From: Rubellicoccus peritrichatus
Lineage (GTDB): Bacteria; Verrucomicrobiota; Verrucomicrobiia; Opitutales; Cerasicoccaceae
Length of the DNA stretch: 64,000 nt
Direction: 5' to 3'
Assembly (NCBI RefSeq): GCF_033100135.1
Contig: NZ_CP136920.1
Location: 3,715,001-3,779,000 of the forward strand
Shown here one piece after another: positions 4,538 to 36,156 of this stretch. A program made the translations under genes and the position numbers. The notes beneath the pieces are model-generated. The model did not search any database. It worked only from the letters and a program-made list of their open reading frames with translations, and was not told where the DNA came from. Within the stretch, counting starts at the first letter, position 1. The number at the start of each line of letters is the position of its first letter.

Positions 4538-7500
4538 ATGAGAAAATTATCTTTGTGCGCCTGCGGGTTCATTGCATTCATTATCAGTGCTCTATCGTCG
4601 AGCGCTTACACTGATTATTCCGGAACCATGGATGACTTCATGGGTATTAATATTCACAGTGTTTATTGGACACAACACTACCGTGAAGGCAACGAAGACA
4701 TCGATCTTAGTCTTGGCTTTAAATGGGTTAGAAACTATCTGCGCTGGGATGTACAGGAACCTCAACCTGATGTCTATCGCTTCAATGATGACGACTTTTA
4801 TGGGAAGGCGCGTTGGCTGGACGAATACTATCGGTTGTTAAATGAAGACGGCTTTAACATTGTCGTCACGCCTATCGAAGTGCCGGATCATACGGATTCA
4901 TTTTATACGGATATGACCCCTTGGTTCACAGGGAGCAAGTATTTGCCTGCAGAAGGTGGCCCAGGAGATGAACCGAATCATTATCGCGAACGAGCAGAAT
5001 TTCTTGCTCAACTTTCGGCGCGTTACGGCCCTACCGGAGGGCTTTCTGAAACACGTCTGGAAACAAGCGACAATGTTCAGGGACTGGATTACGTTCGCTA
5101 CATCGAAGGTGCCAACGAACCGAATCAAAAATGGCGTGATGAGATCTGGCCCGATGCTTATTACGGTCAATGGATGAATGCCGCACATGATGGCCGTGGT
5201 GTTATCCGAGATGGAGGCCTTCCGATCGCCGGGATCAAACAAGGTGATCCCAATGTGACACATGTGATGTGCGGGCTGGTTGAAAATGGGGTAGACCTCG
5301 GTTTTCTTGACCAGACTTTACTTTCTGCGGGACGTCAGGCTTACGATATTATCAACGTCCATTCTTATTTTCGAAACAGTCATTTGAATCCCACAGTGGA
5401 ACATGGTGTTTCACCCGAGTATTACATTCTTGAGAGTGGATTGGATGAGCTCCAGAAAACTATCCGATGGCGCGATGAAAATACGCCGGGCACTCCTGTT
5501 TGGCTTACTGAATTTGGCTGGGATACGCATCTAGCTTACAATGGAACTCATTCTAGAACGTATGCTCCCGAGCCTTCCCAGGGGAACTATATTCTGCGTG
5601 CTTTTCCATTACTGAAGAAAATCGGAATGGATAAAGCATTTCTTTATTTCGATTTCGATCCGGCGGCTGGGAGCCCTAAAATGCATAGTAGCTCTGGCAT
5701 CATTACTCGGATTAACAACGTGACGCCTCTCCGACGTAAGCCTTCCTATTATTACATGACTGCGATGTCGGCCATGGTTGGCGAATATACCTATGAAGGC
5801 GCTCATATTTTTGGAGAAGGAACGCCCGAAGTATACGCTTATCTTTTTTCAAAAAGCCTGACTGATCAAGTTATCATGATATGGTGTCGCGAACGTGATT
5901 CCTTCATCGATAACGGAACCACTTTGAATAACTATGTTTTCTCAGCACCTTATATGATAGAGTGCGAACAAGTCGTCCCAACGGTTGATGTTATCGGTGG
6001 CGTCTCAACGAATTTGTCGGTTGCGCAATCAGGTCAAAATGATGCATCTGTTACGATTGCCCAATTGAGTGAAACCCCGATTTTCTTAAAGATTACAACA
6101 AGTCAGGCTGCAGCCTTAAACTTGTCTCCTGTTGCTGATGCTGGCGACAATCTGGAAGCTATACTGCCTGATGGAGAAAACACAATTGATCAAATTATAA
6201 TTAATGGATCAGGCAGTGACGTAGACGGAACAATCGTTGGCTACCAATGGACGCAGTTATCTGGTCCATCGGCGAATATGCAACAGGCCAATACGGCAAA
6301 TCTTACATTGTCAAATCTTACAGCTGGCAATGACTATGAGTTTGCCTTGGCGGTTACAGATGATGACGGTGCAATAAGCCGCGATCGTGTTAGTCTGATC
6401 GTTGCTGATCGTCAGCCTTTTGGTGGTAACCGTCGTTCGATACCTGGTGTGATTGAAGCAGAGGATTACGATACAGGCGGCTCAGGCGTTGCCTACTATG
6501 ATTCCACTGGGGGCTCCAAAGGATGGTATAACCGTGACGACGATGTGGATATTATGAAGATTGGTAATGCCCCGGGGACGGAATTCTATATTGAAAATCC
6601 TACCCCAGGTGAGTGGATCAAATATTCAGTGACGGTTACACAATCAGGCTTGTATACTTTGGACGCCAAAATTGGAAAGTTTAATGCAAATGAGCGTCGT
6701 GTGTACTTCGAAATAGATGGTGTTGCTTTGGGCGGTATCTTTCGTCCCTTACAAACACCCACTTGGACAACTTTCTACTCCAACACCGGTGAAGGGCCAT
6801 TCTATCTGGAAGCAGGAGATCATACTTTGACAGTTCATTTCGAAACTGCTGGCATCGCGTTGGATAAGTTTGAATTTATCGTTTATGATCCGCCACTGGT
6901 TGATTCCGGAAATTACTTCCGTTTTAACAACCCTAATCCTAACTGGCAGTCAGTCAGAGTGTTTTATGACACAAAATGGAATGACGATATTGATGTGCTT
7001 GCAGGTGGAAACACACACCTTGAATTTTACATCACGAATTTGGATATGACGCTGGTTCCCGACTGGTCGAAAGTAAAGGTCGGAATATCGGATATCAACT
7101 CTATCTACAGTGACATCTGCATCGCAGACTACGTGTCAGGTGTCGGTTCAAACTGGACCCTCGTAAGCGTTCCTTTGTCTGATCTCACGGCTGGTAATAT
7201 TATCGATCTCAATCATGTCATGATGATGAATGTCCGATCAACCAGCGCTGGAGCCTTTGATATTGGCATTGATGAAATTGTCTTCACGGGTGGAACCATG
7301 CCTTTTGTATGGCTGGGAGATGATCATGAGACAAATCCGACCTCCAACAGTTCGATCGTCATGACGGTTGAGCCAGTTGGTGGAATTGGCATTGATGCTG
7401 TCTATGATGAAGCGCCATTTGTCGATGCTGGTCCTGACGATTTTATTCGTCCAACTCTGACCAGTTATACTTTTCCAGGTGCTGCCGAGGACATTGAAGG

Positions 7501-8197
7501 AAGTATCACGAATTATGAATGGGTGCAACTGAGTGGTCCGGTGCTTGCTGCTCCGATGTCAGGTCAATACGCCGCTGAAATGACGGCAACATTCAATACA
7601 TTCGGTACTTACGAGTTTCGACTTTACGCATGGGATGAAGCAGGCCAGCGCGGTGAGGATGATGTCACACTGGTTTACGAAGATACGGGTGGCTATATCT
7701 CAATGGAGCATACTGCGTTGAACAATCAGGCAGTGACCATGCGTTACAATCCCGACGAAGATCCGGTCAATGTCCTTGGAGACCTTAGCCAGCCAAACGA
7801 CACCTTGGAGGTTCACTTCAAGCGCTTTGATTTAAATTCGACTATCGACTGGTCAAAGTTTTATGTGCTTATGAGAAGTTCAGCTTCAGCAATGATTTCT
7901 GCAAATGTTGGTGCCTATCTTAATGGCGCCAGTATCGATGATGAATGGGTTAAGGTTTCGATACCATTGTCAGAGTTTGGTGGAGTGGATCATACTCAAC
8001 TGACTCGCATGCGATTCCAGTCCTCAAAAGCCGGACCTTTCCTTGCGCTTGGAATTGATGAAATCCAGTTTACAGGAGGCAGCAAGCCAGTCGTTTTTTA
8101 TGGAGATGATCACACGGATAATAACTTCGCACCTTTTCAGTCAGATATGACTGCCACCTTTGAATTGACTAATGGTGCTGTCGATACGGCTCCATAG
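4538..8197 (+). CDS. Secreted multimodular glycoside hydrolase (clan GH-A-like) with PKD, CBM6 and duplicated C-terminal modules
   Basis: Probable polysaccharide-degrading enzyme of 1219 aa. Order: signal peptide (about 1-24, ending SALSSSAYT); TIM-barrel catalytic domain (about 28-480) with a likely acid/base Glu194 in EGANEPNQ and a likely nucleophile Glu325 in WLTEFGWDTH, as in clan GH-A (GH39/GH5-like); PKD-like domain (about 533-627); CBM6-like module beginning VIEAEDYDTGGSG (about 637-785); an unnamed beta-type module (about 789-945); a second PKD-like domain (about 960-1050); and a second copy of the unnamed module (about 1051-1215). The two copies share W..VSIPLS, GIDEI.FTGG and GDDH..N patterns. 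No PEP-CTERM or type IX sorting tail is seen. Substrate is unknown. It stands alone, with a REP-like element downstream. Confidence 0.82.
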   Translation: MRKLSLCACGFIAFIISALSSSAYTDYSGTMDDFMGINIHSVYWTQHYREGNEDIDLSLGFKWVRNYLRWDVQEPQPDVYRFNDDDFYGKARWLDEYYRLLNEDGFNIVVTPIEVPDHTDSFYTDMTPWFTGSKYLPAEGGPGDEPNHYRERAEFLAQLSARYGPTGGLSETRLETSDNVQGLDYVRYIEGANEPNQKWRDEIWPDAYYGQWMNAAHDGRGVIRDGGLPIAGIKQGDPNVTHVMCGLVENGVDLGFLDQTLLSAGRQAYDIINVHSYFRNSHLNPTVEHGVSPEYYILESGLDELQKTIRWRDENTPGTPVWLTEFGWDTHLAYNGTHSRTYAPEPSQGNYILRAFPLLKKIGMDKAFLYFDFDPAAGSPKMHSSSGIITRINNVTPLRRKPSYYYMTAMSAMVGEYTYEGAHIFGEGTPEVYAYLFSKSLTDQVIMIWCRERDSFIDNGTTLNNYVFSAPYMIECEQVVPTVDVIGGVSTNLSVAQSGQNDASVTIAQLSETPIFLKITTSQAAALNLSPVADAGDNLEAILPDGENTIDQIIINGSGSDVDGTIVGYQWTQLSGPSANMQQANTANLTLSNLTAGNDYEFALAVTDDDGAISRDRVSLIVADRQPFGGNRRSIPGVIEAEDYDTGGSGVAYYDSTGGSKGWYNRDDDVDIMKIGNAPGTEFYIENPTPGEWIKYSVTVTQSGLYTLDAKIGKFNANERRVYFEIDGVALGGIFRPLQTPTWTTFYSNTGEGPFYLEAGDHTLTVHFETAGIALDKFEFIVYDPPLVDSGNYFRFNNPNPNWQSVRVFYDTKWNDDIDVLAGGNTHLEFYITNLDMTLVPDWSKVKVGISDINSIYSDICIADYVSGVGSNWTLVSVPLSDLTAGNIIDLNHVMMMNVRSTSAGAFDIGIDEIVFTGGTMPFVWLGDDHETNPTSNSSIVMTVEPVGGIGIDAVYDEAPFVDAGPDDFIRPTLTSYTFPGAAEDIEGSITNYEWVQLSGPVLAAPMSGQYAAEMTATFNTFGTYEFRLYAWDEAGQRGEDDVTLVYEDTGGYISMEHTALNNQAVTMRYNPDEDPVNVLGDLSQPNDTLEVHFKRFDLNSTIDWSKFYVLMRSSASAMISANVGAYLNGASIDDEWVKVSIPLSEFGGVDHTQLTRMRFQSSKAGPFLALGIDEIQFTGGSKPVVFYGDDHTDNNFAPFQSDMTATFELTNGAVDTAP

Positions 8198-8376: not shown

Positions 8377-8769
8377 ATGGCAATACCAACCATCGTTATT
8401 GGATTACTTCTCATAATTGTAGGCTTGATCGGCTACTTCTTAGGAACTCCACCTGAAGGAGCAGATGCGGTCAGTGTCACTGCACTCATTCCAGCTTTTT
8501 TTGGTGCTGTGCTTTTCGTTCTTGGACTCGTTGCTGCTCAAATCAAAGGCAAGGCTGTGATGCACGTTATGCATGTGGCTGTTCTAATTGGATTGCTGGG
8601 GCTTGTTGGATCGGCTATGCGAATTCCCAAGAGTATTGCAGCGGTTCAGGAGGGAGGAGAAGCCTTGGCGCTTTATGCGCAATCTGCAATGGCAGTTCTT
8701 TGTTTTATCTACGTTGCTCTATGCATTCGGTCTTTCGTAAATGCTCGAATAAAAAAGCAGGCGGAATAG
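8377..8769 (+). CDS. Small four-helix membrane protein of unknown function
   Basis: A 130-aa protein made almost wholly of four hydrophobic helices (about residues 3-23, 35-57, 65-82 and 100-120) and ending in a basic tail (RIKKQAE). The first helix reads MAIPTIVIGLLLIIVGLIGY. No catalytic motif is seen. I recognise the general type (short conserved membrane protein seen in Verrucomicrobia and Planctomycetes) but no named family or function. It precedes the radical SAM gene by about 70 bp in the same direction and might share its transcript. Confidence 0.75.
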   Translation: MAIPTIVIGLLLIIVGLIGYFLGTPPEGADAVSVTALIPAFFGAVLFVLGLVAAQIKGKAVMHVMHVAVLIGLLGLVGSAMRIPKSIAAVQEGGEALALYAQSAMAVLCFIYVALCIRSFVNARIKKQAE

Positions 8770-8842
8770 GCAAGGGGCTGTTGTTCCGATAATAACACCG
8801 GAGCATGAGTCAGCCATTGTGGTATTCCAGACCCATGCATTG

Positions 8843-9856
8843 ATGAAGTTCGCTCCGCATTTTTCGCGCATCTATGTTGAAAAAGATGCCTTGAAGTATC
8901 CTTTTGCGCAGCAGGTGCTGGATCGTTTTTCGAAGGCTAATCTGGTCTACATCGATGATTATCGGAACGTATTTAATCGATCAGGGCAGGATTTTCGTCT
9001 CCAGAAAGCATCAAAAAGTCTGATTTTAGCCAAAAAGAAGGACAATCTTCTTTATGACGGCAATGCAATGGTCCAGGACTTTGGTTATCGGAATTTTGCT
9101 TACAATACGCCCGTCTTGAACTGCATCTATGACTGTGCTTACTGCTATCTGCAGGGCATGTTTTCTTCGGCGAATCTCGTCGCTTTTGTGAATACGGAAG
9201 ATTTCTTTGATGCAACGAAACTTGCCATCGCTGAACGGCCCGATAAATCAGCTCCACTGCACCTGGCCCTTTCCTATGATACTGACTTGCTCGCGTCTGA
9301 AACTATTTTGCCCTTTTGTTGCGAGTGGATTGAATTTTGCAGAAACAATCCGGATCTGGTCATCGAAATAAGGACTAAAAGTGCTAATCTCGCGCCGCTT
9401 GCTGATATCCGCCCACTTGACCGTTGTATTTTGGCTTGGACAATGACCCCGCCAGAGCTGGCAGAACGTTACGAAACCGATGCACCCAAGCCGGAAAAAC
9501 GGCTTATTGCTGCCACGAAGGCAATAGATGCAGGTTGGCCCGTACGTCTTTGTTTCGATCCGGTCTTGCCCTGTGGGGATTGGGATGCCATTTACTCAAG
9601 TTTCTATGAGGAAGTCTTCTCCCGGCTCTCTGGACAACAAGTCCTTGATGCGAGTCTCGGAGTCTTTCGGATCAACCATCAATTTTATACTCGTCTGAAA
9701 AAAAACCGACCCAATACCGATCTCGTGTATCGTAACTGGACCCGCGAAGGAGATTCGCTTTCCCTGCCCAGCACTGAGCGCGAGAAAATGCTTGAACGTC
9801 TGACGGCCTTACTCCGTCGTTATCTTCCCCAGGAAAAGATTGCCGTATGGATGTAG
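8843..9856 (+). CDS. SPL-family radical SAM protein (spore photoproduct lyase-like)
   Basis: Radical S-adenosylmethionine enzyme of the spore photoproduct lyase (SplB-like) family, whose founding member repairs thymine-dimer lesions in DNA; the substrate of this non-sporulating relative is unknown. The 4Fe-4S cluster motif is CX3CX2C in NCIYDCAYCYLQ (Cys94, Cys98, Cys101), the spacing normal for radical SAM proteins. The N-terminus (RIYVEKDALKYPFAQQVLDR) matches the SPL family start. I prefer the ATG at 8843 (337 aa); a GTG at 8819 would add eight residues. The stop overlaps the start of the next gene by 10 bp, so the two are translationally coupled. Confidence 0.87.
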   Translation: MKFAPHFSRIYVEKDALKYPFAQQVLDRFSKANLVYIDDYRNVFNRSGQDFRLQKASKSLILAKKKDNLLYDGNAMVQDFGYRNFAYNTPVLNCIYDCAYCYLQGMFSSANLVAFVNTEDFFDATKLAIAERPDKSAPLHLALSYDTDLLASETILPFCCEWIEFCRNNPDLVIEIRTKSANLAPLADIRPLDRCILAWTMTPPELAERYETDAPKPEKRLIAATKAIDAGWPVRLCFDPVLPCGDWDAIYSSFYEEVFSRLSGQQVLDASLGVFRINHQFYTRLKKNRPNTDLVYRNWTREGDSLSLPSTEREKMLERLTALLRRYLPQEKIAVWM

Positions 9857-11490
9857 CTGTCATTACGGGTGCTTCTGCCGGCTCCGGACTCGCCATATCC
9901 CGACGCCTTGTTGCGATGGGAATGCGAGTCTACGGAATCGATGCAGATTATGAAAACTGTGCCTGGAAGCATGAGGACTTTATCAAAGTCACTTGTGATG
10001 TATTCCGGCAGGACAAACTGGCAATGGCCTGGAAGGAGATCGTTGACCGTGACCCTGAAGTTTCTGTTCTGGTTCATGCTGCTCACGCAAAGGTTCCGGC
10101 TTCTCTGGAATCTGCGCATCCCGATGATATTCACCGTGCGCTTGAAGCACGATTGATCGGGCCAACGCTTTTGATGCGTTACGCGCTTCCCAGAATCATT
10201 CGGATTCGTGGTACTGTGCTTTTCCTGACAACGAATACTGGTAATGCGATTGATTACATGGTCGATGGCGCGATTGCCTCGCTATCATCTGCAGCATTTG
10301 CCGAATTGCGTGATACTGGAGTCAAGATTTGTGAAATCGCTCTCCAGCCTAATGTTGAAGGTGAAGAGGCTGATTCTCGATTTACGCGTATTGACTTTGA
10401 TGTTGTTGGTGAGGCGGTGGAGAGCATTTTGCGATTGCCGGCAAACAATGTGGTAACCCGTTTGGTCGTGCGTCCGCAGGCGACACGTGAGGAGCCGTTC
10501 AAAGCTACCGCACCTTTGTTACGTTGGGGGCCGGATGATATACAGTTGCCGCCGCGTGAGAAGTTCCCCGAAGAACCGGATCCGATCATGACGCCACCGC
10601 GCGAACGTCCTTTGGATGCGCCGCCTCCAGGCGAATATGACGATGATGACTTTGAAGATGAAGACGATGAGTTGGACCGCCTTTTGGAGGAGTCCAGGCA
10701 GAGACTGAAAAAACAAGCCGATCGCAGTCGACAAAGCAGAGGTCAACGTGGTGATCGAAACCAACGTGGCGGTCGAAATCGAAGGGGCTCGAATCAACGT
10801 AGTCGAGATGATAATCGCCGAAGTGATGAAGAGCATAAGCGAGATGATGATAGGCGTCCATCGGACGAAGGCGAAGGCCGCCGGGATGAAAGTCAGCAAA
10901 GCGAACAACGGCCCAGGGATTCTCAAAACCAAAATCCAGAAGGAGATAATCCAAACAGGCGCCGCCGTCGTCGAGGCCGTCGCCGTGGTGGTCGCAGGGA
11001 TCGTGATGATCGTTGTCCTGACCAGCGTGATGATGGTGCTGATCGTCAACAAAGTGATCGTAGTAGTGCAATTCCAACAGGCGAAAGTCGCCGTGATGAT
11101 CGCTCTGGAAAGGCTGGGGACGAAAGCCATTCCGATGGGATAAGAAAGCAGGATCGCTCAGATCGGCATTCTGATTCACAAGCCGAAGCTCCTAAAGAAT
11201 TTTCTAAAAAGCCGCAGCCAACACTCAACAAAGCTCCCAAAGAGAAGACAGCTGGTCTAGTAACAGATACACTTACGAAGGAAGAAAGCTCTAAACCAAA
11301 GAAAAAAGCTGCGAAAAAGGCAGTAAAGAAAGTGGCTAAGAAAGCCGTCAAAAAGACGGCAACCAAAAAGGCCGCTACAAAAAAGGCAGCGAAGACAGTT
11401 AAGAAGGCAGCAAAGAAGGCCGTTAAAAAAGCGGCAAAGAAGGCTGTCAAGAAGACGGTGTCCAAGGCCAGGAAAGAGACAAGTGACTAA
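9847..11490 (+). CDS. SDR-fold protein with acidic linker, Arg/Asp-rich region and histone-H1-like Lys/Ala tail
   Basis: A 547-aa fusion. Residues 1-215 are a short-chain dehydrogenase Rossmann fold with TGASAGSG at 7-14. The catalytic set looks broken: the usual NNAG is HAAH (77-80 region), and the YxxxK motif reads Tyr137-MVD-Gly141, with glycine in place of lysine. Residues about 255-275 are acidic (EYDDDDFEDEDDELD). About 276-420 are rich in Arg, Asp, Gly and Gln, including RRRRRRGRRRGGRRDRDD. Residues about 478-545 repeat KKA/AVKK units like the C-terminal tails of eukaryotic H1 and bacterial AlgP/HctB-type proteins. The tail should be disordered and bind nucleic acid. It starts inside the SPL radical SAM gene, suggesting a joint role. 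Function is unknown. Confidence 0.85.
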   Translation: MDVAVITGASAGSGLAISRRLVAMGMRVYGIDADYENCAWKHEDFIKVTCDVFRQDKLAMAWKEIVDRDPEVSVLVHAAHAKVPASLESAHPDDIHRALEARLIGPTLLMRYALPRIIRIRGTVLFLTTNTGNAIDYMVDGAIASLSSAAFAELRDTGVKICEIALQPNVEGEEADSRFTRIDFDVVGEAVESILRLPANNVVTRLVVRPQATREEPFKATAPLLRWGPDDIQLPPREKFPEEPDPIMTPPRERPLDAPPPGEYDDDDFEDEDDELDRLLEESRQRLKKQADRSRQSRGQRGDRNQRGGRNRRGSNQRSRDDNRRSDEEHKRDDDRRPSDEGEGRRDESQQSEQRPRDSQNQNPEGDNPNRRRRRRGRRRGGRRDRDDRCPDQRDDGADRQQSDRSSAIPTGESRRDDRSGKAGDESHSDGIRKQDRSDRHSDSQAEAPKEFSKKPQPTLNKAPKEKTAGLVTDTLTKEESSKPKKKAAKKAVKKVAKKAVKKTATKKAATKKAAKTVKKAAKKAVKKAAKKAVKKTVSKARKETSD

Positions 11491-35086: not shown

Positions 35087-35482
35087 TCACTGTTTTAGCC
35101 ATGCTCTTATCGTATTGCAGATGCCCATGCTTGTTGTTCCAGGCGTTGGGATCTTCACCCATGTTCCATCTTTAAGTCGGAGTGATGTTCCGCAACCTTT
35201 CTCCCATCTTACACATTCAATCTCTGCTTTTTCTATGGTTCTTGTTTTAAACTCGTGGGTGAAATTAATCGAAGCAGTGTATAGAACCAATTTGGTGGTC
35301 ATCAATTCGTAGATTCCTCCAAGACTAATCAGAGTGAAGGCGTAGAAACACCAGGCCTCCCAGGTGTATGGGTCACTCAAGATGTAGTATGCGCTGAAAA
35401 TCAGTGCGCCCAATGGTATGGCAGAGAAATATAAAAATGATTTTCTACTTGGTCGGAAGACTTTCTCGGGGGTGTCTTTCAC
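35087..35482 (-). CDS. Small membrane protein of unknown function
   Basis: A 131-aa protein with two membrane helices (about residues 16-36 and 42-60) followed by a C-terminal domain of short strands (KLVLYTASINFTHEFKTRTI, then GTSLRLKDGTWVKI) that resembles bacterial PH-like domains in membrane proteins, an uncertain comparison. Its start overlaps the stop of the SDR gene by 4 bp (same direction), so the two are coupled. Function unknown. Confidence 0.72.
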   Translation of the reverse strand: MKDTPEKVFRPSRKSFLYFSAIPLGALIFSAYYILSDPYTWEAWCFYAFTLISLGGIYELMTTKLVLYTASINFTHEFKTRTIEKAEIECVRWEKGCGTSLRLKDGTWVKIPTPGTTSMGICNTIRAWLKQ

Positions 35483-36156
35483 TTCTGCATCAGATTAACG
35501 TCTCCAACTTCGGTAAACTTGGATAAACCCAGGATCCAATCTACGGCCTGAATGACGTCTGCCAGCGGGATCGGATTTTGGGTTGGTGTCCTGCCGGAGT
35601 TCATATCTTCGATGACTTCTTCAGTCGCGACCAATCCCGGATTGATCACAGTGAATCCAATGCCTTCTTCCTTGAGGCCGCAGCGGAGGGCTTGAATGCT
35701 TCCACGAAGACCAAATTTTGATGCAGAATTAGCGACTTCAGGTGAAGGGCATAGTTCCAATCCTGAAATGGACCCCATGTATATTGCCCTCGGGTTTTCT
35801 GATTGCTTTAGATTGTTCAGCAATCCTTTGGTGATCTCGATCGGTGCAATCAGGTTTACGTTGATCACAAATTGGGTCTCTTCAAACGGGCTCTTCCTGA
35901 AATCATAACCATCGCTGAAAGCCTCTTGTTCCCAGACACCACCCATAAACAATAAGGCATCAATCCTTCGGGTTGAAACGGTTGTGATGACTTTCTCTAT
36001 GCCCTCAGGCTTTGAAATGTCGGCTTCGATCCATTCGCCAATAGCGGATGGTGTTCGTGACACCGAAAAAATATTATCGTCTTTGGCATCGTAAAATCGA
36101 GCAACTGCCGCCCCGATCCCTCGGCTTGCTCCAACAATTAAAATGTTCTTTTTCAT
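35479..36156 (-). CDS. SDR-family protein with altered active-site tyrosine
   Basis: A 225-aa short-chain dehydrogenase/reductase fold. NAD(P)-binding motif GASRGIGAAVARF at the N-terminus and catalytic serine region MGSISGLELCPSPE are normal. The YxxxK motif reads NSASK (in EVANSASKFGLRGS): lysine is kept, but tyrosine is replaced by asparagine, one base change away (AAT for TAT). It may be inactive or use another acid. It overlaps the small membrane protein gene by 4 bp. A 120-bp gap with nothing evident separates it from the GNAT gene. Confidence 0.85.
   Translation of the reverse strand: MKKNILIVGASRGIGAAVARFYDAKDDNIFSVSRTPSAIGEWIEADISKPEGIEKVITTVSTRRIDALLFMGGVWEQEAFSDGYDFRKSPFEETQFVINVNLIAPIEITKGLLNNLKQSENPRAIYMGSISGLELCPSPEVANSASKFGLRGSIQALRCGLKEEGIGFTVINPGLVATEEVIEDMNSGRTPTQNPIPLADVIQAVDWILGLSKFTEVGDVNLMQK

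Follow-up and report, generated by a model that had tools for sequence, protein, structure and literature searches.

A stretch of 64,000 nucleotides from Rubellicoccus peritrichatus (contig NZ_CP136920.1, positions 3,715,001 to 3,779,000; hereafter the window) carries two overlapping forward-strand genes: S (8843..9856, 337 aa), which encodes a radical S-adenosylmethionine (SAM) protein of a subfamily resembling spore photoproduct lyase (SPL), and T (9847..11490, 547 aa), which encodes a protein related to the short-chain dehydrogenases/reductases (SDRs) with a long charged tail. We propose that S, a nucleosidase-like protein encoded by a further gene, N, and a tailless SDR, D, constitute an undescribed radical SAM module in which N acts on a SAM-derived nucleoside or adduct, and that T is a catalytically dead SDR scaffold with a polyanion-binding tail, a reading to which we give a probability of roughly 0.45. 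The module is probably not a DNA repair system. The initial annotation of this locus had described an SPL-like radical SAM gene overlapping an SDR-type gene by 10 bp (9847..9856), with which the coordinates and the Pfam matches agree, but it overlooked the missing SDR catalytic residues of T and the third gene of the system, N. No paper on the N-S-D module was found in the openly licensed literature; COG1533 (SplB) is tabulated among transferred gut genes in PMC10782964, with no nucleosidase in that tabulation.

The strict partner of S is N (~280 aa), a nucleosidase of the MTAN/futalosine-hydrolase type. Among 54 genomes of relatives searched at an E-value of 0.001, S was found in 18, 17 of these being strong matches (E<1e-50) and one, in G012, a distant match (9e-13, 21% identity); genomes and loci are given here by our own G and L labels where they have to be told apart. 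The N profile matched 21 of the 54, and its 17 strong matches (E<1e-70) fall in exactly the 17 genomes with strong S, the weak ones (6e-18 to 8e-5) being in G012, G025, G044 and G030. The p-value for this co-occurrence is 2e-14, uncorrected for shared descent and with the strong/weak cut chosen after the gap in the scores had been seen. N precedes S in all 16 strong loci besides that of the window. A sample of 288 genomes from the phylum, in which at most 7 (S) and 8 (N) candidates per genome were scored, yielded 9 genomes with matches to S and 7 with matches to N at E 1e-15, and the strong matches to S (<1e-100) and to N (<1e-50) are in the same 5 genomes. Of the 20 distinct genomes that have both genes, 18 carry them side by side, the exceptions being G000, which is the window's genome, and G095, where a gene for an ABC-F-type ATPase on the opposite strand (L098 9140-10741) sits between them. 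The usual place of N in the window is occupied by a gene for a 130-aa protein with hydrophobic stretches (8377-8769, forward strand), which has no Pfam match above cutoff.

All three N proteins tested match the PNP_UDP_1 profile (27.1-42.7 bits, cutoff 25.1), and in NCBIfam they come closest to futalosine hydrolase, MTAN or a generic nucleosidase, each below its cutoff (at best 47.4 of 124.7 bits for the MTAN and futalosine hydrolase equivalogs; for the N of L007 the best match is futalosine hydrolase at 1.9e-12, also below cutoff). A structure model of the N from L019, with a predicted local distance difference test score (pLDDT) of 65.8, aligns with structures of MTAN and of futalosine hydrolase. 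All 21 rows of the N alignment share an invariant DME motif and, farther along, an invariant Asp (D165). N resembles these enzymes in its profile, its fold and its conserved residues, but differs from them in missing the NCBIfam cutoffs and in having an extra C-terminal helical region, seen in the L019 model.

The N-S genes are also found in loci of Lachnospiraceae, Eubacteriaceae and Erysipelotrichaceae. In a sample of 200 genomes from the Firmicutes gut family of G328, the genome of L019 (L114 is the same place), S was detected in 33 at E<1e-100. Thirty of these 33 loci were examined, and N is present in 26 (two partial), an SDR in 23 and all three genes in 21; the coverage was ~1.5 kb per side and some contigs are short, so that the absences are not firm. 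In two loci N and S form one open reading frame (ORF; L134 1462-3684 and L135 526-2508), and the strict pairing of N with S together with such fusions suggests that N acts on the product of S. The Firmicutes SDR, D, is tailless, with ORFs of 229-291 aa. Among the 17 relatives with strong S, an SDR lies beside S in seven, being T in six and a tailless D in G029. The co-inheritance of S with a nucleosidase in two bacterial groups hints at an undescribed pathway of radical chemistry rather than at DNA repair.

S resembles SPL in its fold, in its CxxxCxYC motif and, in the window, in both tyrosine positions, but is unlike it in falling far below the SPL equivalog cutoffs, in lacking a C-terminal motif, in being tied to a nucleosidase and in co-existing with a closer SPL-like protein in the genome G355. 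The window S scores 67.9 bits against the Pfam SPL family PF20903 (cutoff 27), and misses the cutoffs of the NCBIfam SPL equivalogs TIGR04070 and TIGR03886 by far (72.6 of 400 and 56.4 of 437.55 bits). The open frame could begin at a GTG at 8819, but relatives start near the ATG at 8843. The best structural matches of an AlphaFold2 model of S (pLDDT 66.9) are SPL crystal structures (Z 19.2-19.6; for 4fhf, Z 19.6 and a root-mean-square deviation of 2.6 over 232 residues), the next family being lipoyl synthase (Z 13.4). The three cysteines of the iron-sulfur motif (C94, C98 and C101; 9122..9145) are invariant in 25 alignment rows and in all 55 S proteins compared. Both members of the SPL tyrosine pair are kept in the window; across the 55, the first is always Tyr and the second is Tyr in 45, Phe in nine and Trp in one.

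A second SPL-like class is present in seven of the 200 Firmicutes-family genomes (E 2.5e-38 to 3.5e-32), G355 carrying both kinds. By score these seven proteins (L144-L150) are nearer to SPL than S is, yet they too miss the equivalog cutoff and rank here as SPL-like, not as SPL. They score 158-243 bits on the SPL equivalogs versus 52-82 bits for the three S tested (on TIGR04070, with its cutoff of 400, 215.6-242.6 versus 72.6-81.9 bits). A C-terminal GRGRG(K/R)YCY motif, defined on these comparators, is found in all seven and in none of the 55 S; we take its role to be DNA contact. The comparators have in common two cysteines just after the cluster, and have no Cys around the known SPL donor sites.

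The hydrogen donor of SPL is described as C141(Bs)/C140(Gt) or C74(Ca) in PMC5368176. We placed these sites on S by a phmmer alignment to Gt SPL combined with inspection by eye, to within one to three residues, and considered the surrounding residues 70-81 and 139-146. S76 of Gt SPL was presumed to mark the C74(Ca) site, an assumption prompted by the title of 4rh0. The window S has no Cys in either span, at this precision of placement, and looks unable to use the known donor sites. A Cys is found in the two spans in 34 and 41 of the 55 S, respectively, and in none of the seven comparators. Outside the cluster, no Cys is universal among the 55 S; the best column has 48 (C237 in the window) and the next-best have 40 and 34, with Ala and Val in the window.

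T shares with classical SDRs its adh_short match (49 bits, cutoff 26.6) and, in most T, a TGxxxG-type motif, but unlike them has a long tail and lacks the YxxxK motif, which is absent in all 18 T while being present in all 27 D (26 from Firmicutes and one from G029) and in 13 of 14 other SDRs. At the place of YxxxK the window T reads DYMVDGA (residues 136-142, 10252..10272), with no Lys at this place whichever of D136 and Y137 is aligned to the catalytic Tyr. Judged by sequence, T is the nearest relative of D in the window's order, having lost the catalytic residues of SDRs. On the T profile, every one of the 27 D (108-188 bits) outscores every one of the 14 other SDRs (30-88 bits). The most likely course, as far as these comparisons go, is that in the window's order D gave rise to T by loss of YxxxK and gain of the tail, a direction favoured by the profile scores, by an RPQ/KPQ-type motif (RPQ is also found in one of the 14 other SDRs) and by the common place in the operon. 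An unrooted SDR tree, in which T, D and the rest each lie on one side of a branch, does not settle whether T came from D. In G029 an intact D stands in the N-S operon and a T lies elsewhere; this genome is the first branch in a clade of 15 in the S tree, with weak support (81/54). A second SDR-like gene of the window (35479-36156, reverse strand) groups with ordinary SDRs and has an Asn aligned to the catalytic Tyr.

The distribution of T is distinct from that of N-S. Strong matches to T (E<1e-50) were found in 18 of the 54 relatives, 10 of them without N-S; both are present in eight, N-S alone in nine, T alone in 10 and neither in 27 (Fisher p 0.21, uncorrected for kinship). T as an obligate partner of S was rejected on this lack of significant co-occurrence. 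In the window's family, S was not found at E 0.001 in any of the nine other members, five of which keep T. Where both are present T adjoins S in six of eight genomes, with overlapping frames in four; such overlaps measure 10 bp in L002 and L004 and 16 bp in L007. Among the 288 phylum genomes, with at most nine candidates per genome scored for T, strong matches are confined to 12, all within the window's order, and the weaker ones (to 1e-26) come from SDRs whose open frames measure 235-314 aa. T lies without N-S in G030 and G048, next to a miaB-like gene, a gene with no Pfam match and a guanylate kinase gene, and G016 has N-S without T at that place, which points to an ancestral locus that was probably N-S-T and from which either part was then lost.

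A divergently oriented gene of the histone-deacetylase family (PF00850, from a scan of three of the four genes) is the neighbour of N in G000 and G036 and of T in G030 and G048 (G000:C1:4325605-4326390, L060 6558-7460; L103 5530-6444; L107 8208-9098; L070 9276-10175). In the other genomes of the 54 with T or N-S, matches to this family are on other contigs, far off, or none. These adjoining genes leave open a control of the T tail by lysine deacetylation.

The tail of the window T (~335 residues) has the acidic, R/D/G-rich and K/A-repeat parts noted in the initial annotation, and is kept in relatives in that all 18 T have a long charged tail, of 163-514 residues. An RPQ motif and proline-rich linker (residues 206-262, 10462..10632) are followed by an acidic DELDRLLEESR segment (263-290, 10633..10716), an R/D/G/Q-rich segment with a RRRRRRGRRRGGRR core (291-470, 10717..11256) and a K/A repeat of H1/AlgP-like composition (471-547, 11257..11487). 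The window tail has no Pfam family match at E 0.1, HC2 included, and the T of L002 reaches 15.1 bits against HC2 (cutoff 40). A K/A-rich stretch, defined as at least 25% K and at least 30% A+P+S+T+V in a 40-residue window, is found in 16 of 17 T and in two of 516 other ORFs of at least 100 aa from neighbourhoods chosen for T or N-S, a local rather than genome-wide control from which the T of L068 is omitted, being displaced by a longer overlapping ORF; such tails as a general habit of these genomes are disfavoured by this comparison. On the reverse strand at 10519-11179, two long ORFs of 203 and 197 aa mirror the skewed codons of the tail and are probably not genes.

Compared with five members of the window's family, whose genomes lack S, the window T shows 34-63% identity in the SDR fold, 51-71% in the linker, 68-86% in the acidic segment, 26-40% in the R/D/G-rich segment and 52-65% in the K/A repeat. 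The acidic DELDxLLEES segment and the linker are more conserved than the fold in every one of these five comparisons; in the order as a whole, not every T has a strong acidic part. The T tail is like AlgP (PMC9239181) and histone H1-like bacterial proteins in its K/A-rich C-terminal repeat, and unlike them in being joined to a dead SDR and, within the family of the window, in having acidic and Arg-rich modules as well. From its composition and the likeness to AlgP, the tail may bind a polyanion.

From the gene order, co-occurrence, loss of catalytic residues and tail conservation, all obtained by computation, we infer the substrates, the activities and the polyanion binding that make up the proposed mechanism. 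S would cleave SAM reductively, consuming it, and N would cut adenine from the resulting nucleoside, either an adenosyl adduct made by S or the by-product 5'-deoxyadenosine. In Firmicutes D, with its intact SDR active site, would then act as the reductase of the carbonyl or sugar so formed; a reduction step after adenine removal would suit an active D. In the window's order, D would have turned into T, with the catalytic residues lost and the tail gained, and T would serve, independently of S, as a scaffold on a polyanion (DNA, RNA or polyphosphate). The nearest described precedent, a pairing of a radical SAM enzyme with an adenine-removing enzyme, is that of PMC12583986, where HpnH adds the 5'-deoxyadenosyl radical and a putative phosphorylase (HpnG) then removes adenine, and where the enzyme that forms the tetrol from ribosylhopane is given as not established. 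A more specific version of the mechanism, which we consider unlikely, is that N-S-D is a further radical adenosylation pathway, next to those of hopanoids and futalosine, in which S, an SPL-fold enzyme diverted from cleaving lesions, attaches a 5'-deoxyadenosyl group to its substrate, N removes the adenine and D reduces the ribosyl product, T being a dead dehydrogenase converted from D, with a polyanion anchor that resembles a histone tail. MqnE and MqnB are an adenosylation-depurination pair, again a radical SAM enzyme with an adenine-removing one, from which the module differs in that S is nearest to SPL and not to MqnE (Z 19.6 versus 12.5).

The initial annotation had proposed that S repairs a DNA or RNA lesion while the tail of T holds the complex on nucleic acid. 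The SPL fold of the S model, the retained tyrosine positions, the polycationic tail encoded by the overlapping gene and the Cys in or near a known donor site of 42 of the 55 S, the window's not among them, are consistent with this proposal, but the nucleosidase partner, the distance from SPL in score and the absence of GRGRG(K/R)YCY speak against it, and we have set lesion repair aside as the main reading of S, regarding it as distinctly unlikely. A tail that holds S on nucleic acid is also hard to reconcile with the lack of significant co-occurrence of T and N-S, with the relatives that keep T without S and with the tailless SDR of Firmicutes. What holds of the annotation is that the pair of SPL-like and SDR genes is real and old: S has an SDR gene as neighbour in 23 of the 30 loci from Firmicutes and in seven of the 17 relatives. 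As for N, it might merely clear the 5'-deoxyadenosine released by S, in a protective role outside the pathway proper. Such clearance is normally handled by the general MTAN, and a nucleosidase that is dedicated to S, inherited strictly with it and in some loci fused to it would exceed what clearance needs. We therefore hold this role to be somewhat unlikely, although 5'-deoxyadenosine inhibits radical SAM enzymes (PMC8102628) and N is MTAN-like.

Two other explanations concern the tail of T. It is quite possible, if short of an even chance, that T is an AlgP-like organiser of polyphosphate or of the chromosome that is no longer tied to N-S, its place in the operon being left over from its origin in D: the co-occurrence of T with N-S is not significant, the tail segments outconserve the fold in a family whose nine other members lack S, and the KPAA tail of AlgP, which matters at polyphosphate granules according to PMC9239181, provides a precedent. 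Against it stand the adjacency of T and S in six of the eight genomes with both and the overlapping frames in four. A neutral repeat expansion would account for the range of tail lengths among the 18 T and for the varying number of K/A repeats and the varying R/D/G segment; it appears very improbable in view of the acidic segment and linker, whose conservation exceeds that of the fold in all five family members compared, and of the K/A-rich stretch in 16 of 17 T.

Several observations weigh against the reading of N-S-D as a radical SAM module and of T as its derived scaffold. In the window's own genome N is ~600 kb from S (L060 5637-6722; the single TAA counted within this gene is, by its coordinates, its own stop). 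No D or T lies beside S, within the stretch covered, in seven of the 30 loci from Firmicutes and in 10 of the 17 relatives with N-S, so the reduction step is not obligatory. At least one donor-site span contains a Cys in 42 of the 55 S, the window and 12 others carrying none, and part of the S family could, on this sequence evidence, keep SPL-like hydrogen donation; the seven comparators have no Cys there, so that for the S family SPL chemistry can be neither proved nor disproved from these cysteines. Moreover, SPL with the C141A mutation retains turnover of the lesion, ending in an abortive product, according to PMC5368176. The structure models of S and N are of modest confidence (pLDDT 66.9 and 65.8), and charged low-complexity tails evolve easily, polyanion binding being a guess from composition.

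Farther upstream in the window, at 4538-8197 of the forward strand, lies a gene for a putative glycosidase-like protein of 1219 aa whose start resembles a signal peptide.

DNA repair is the role for which SPL is known, and S, which shares the SPL fold, has strong genomic evidence of working beside a nucleosidase. In consequence of this link some 'spore photoproduct lyase' labels may mislead, and the link renders the chemistry of S testable. T, in turn, exemplifies an enzyme fold from which the catalytic residues appear to have been lost, the best conservation having passed to parts of a charged tail.

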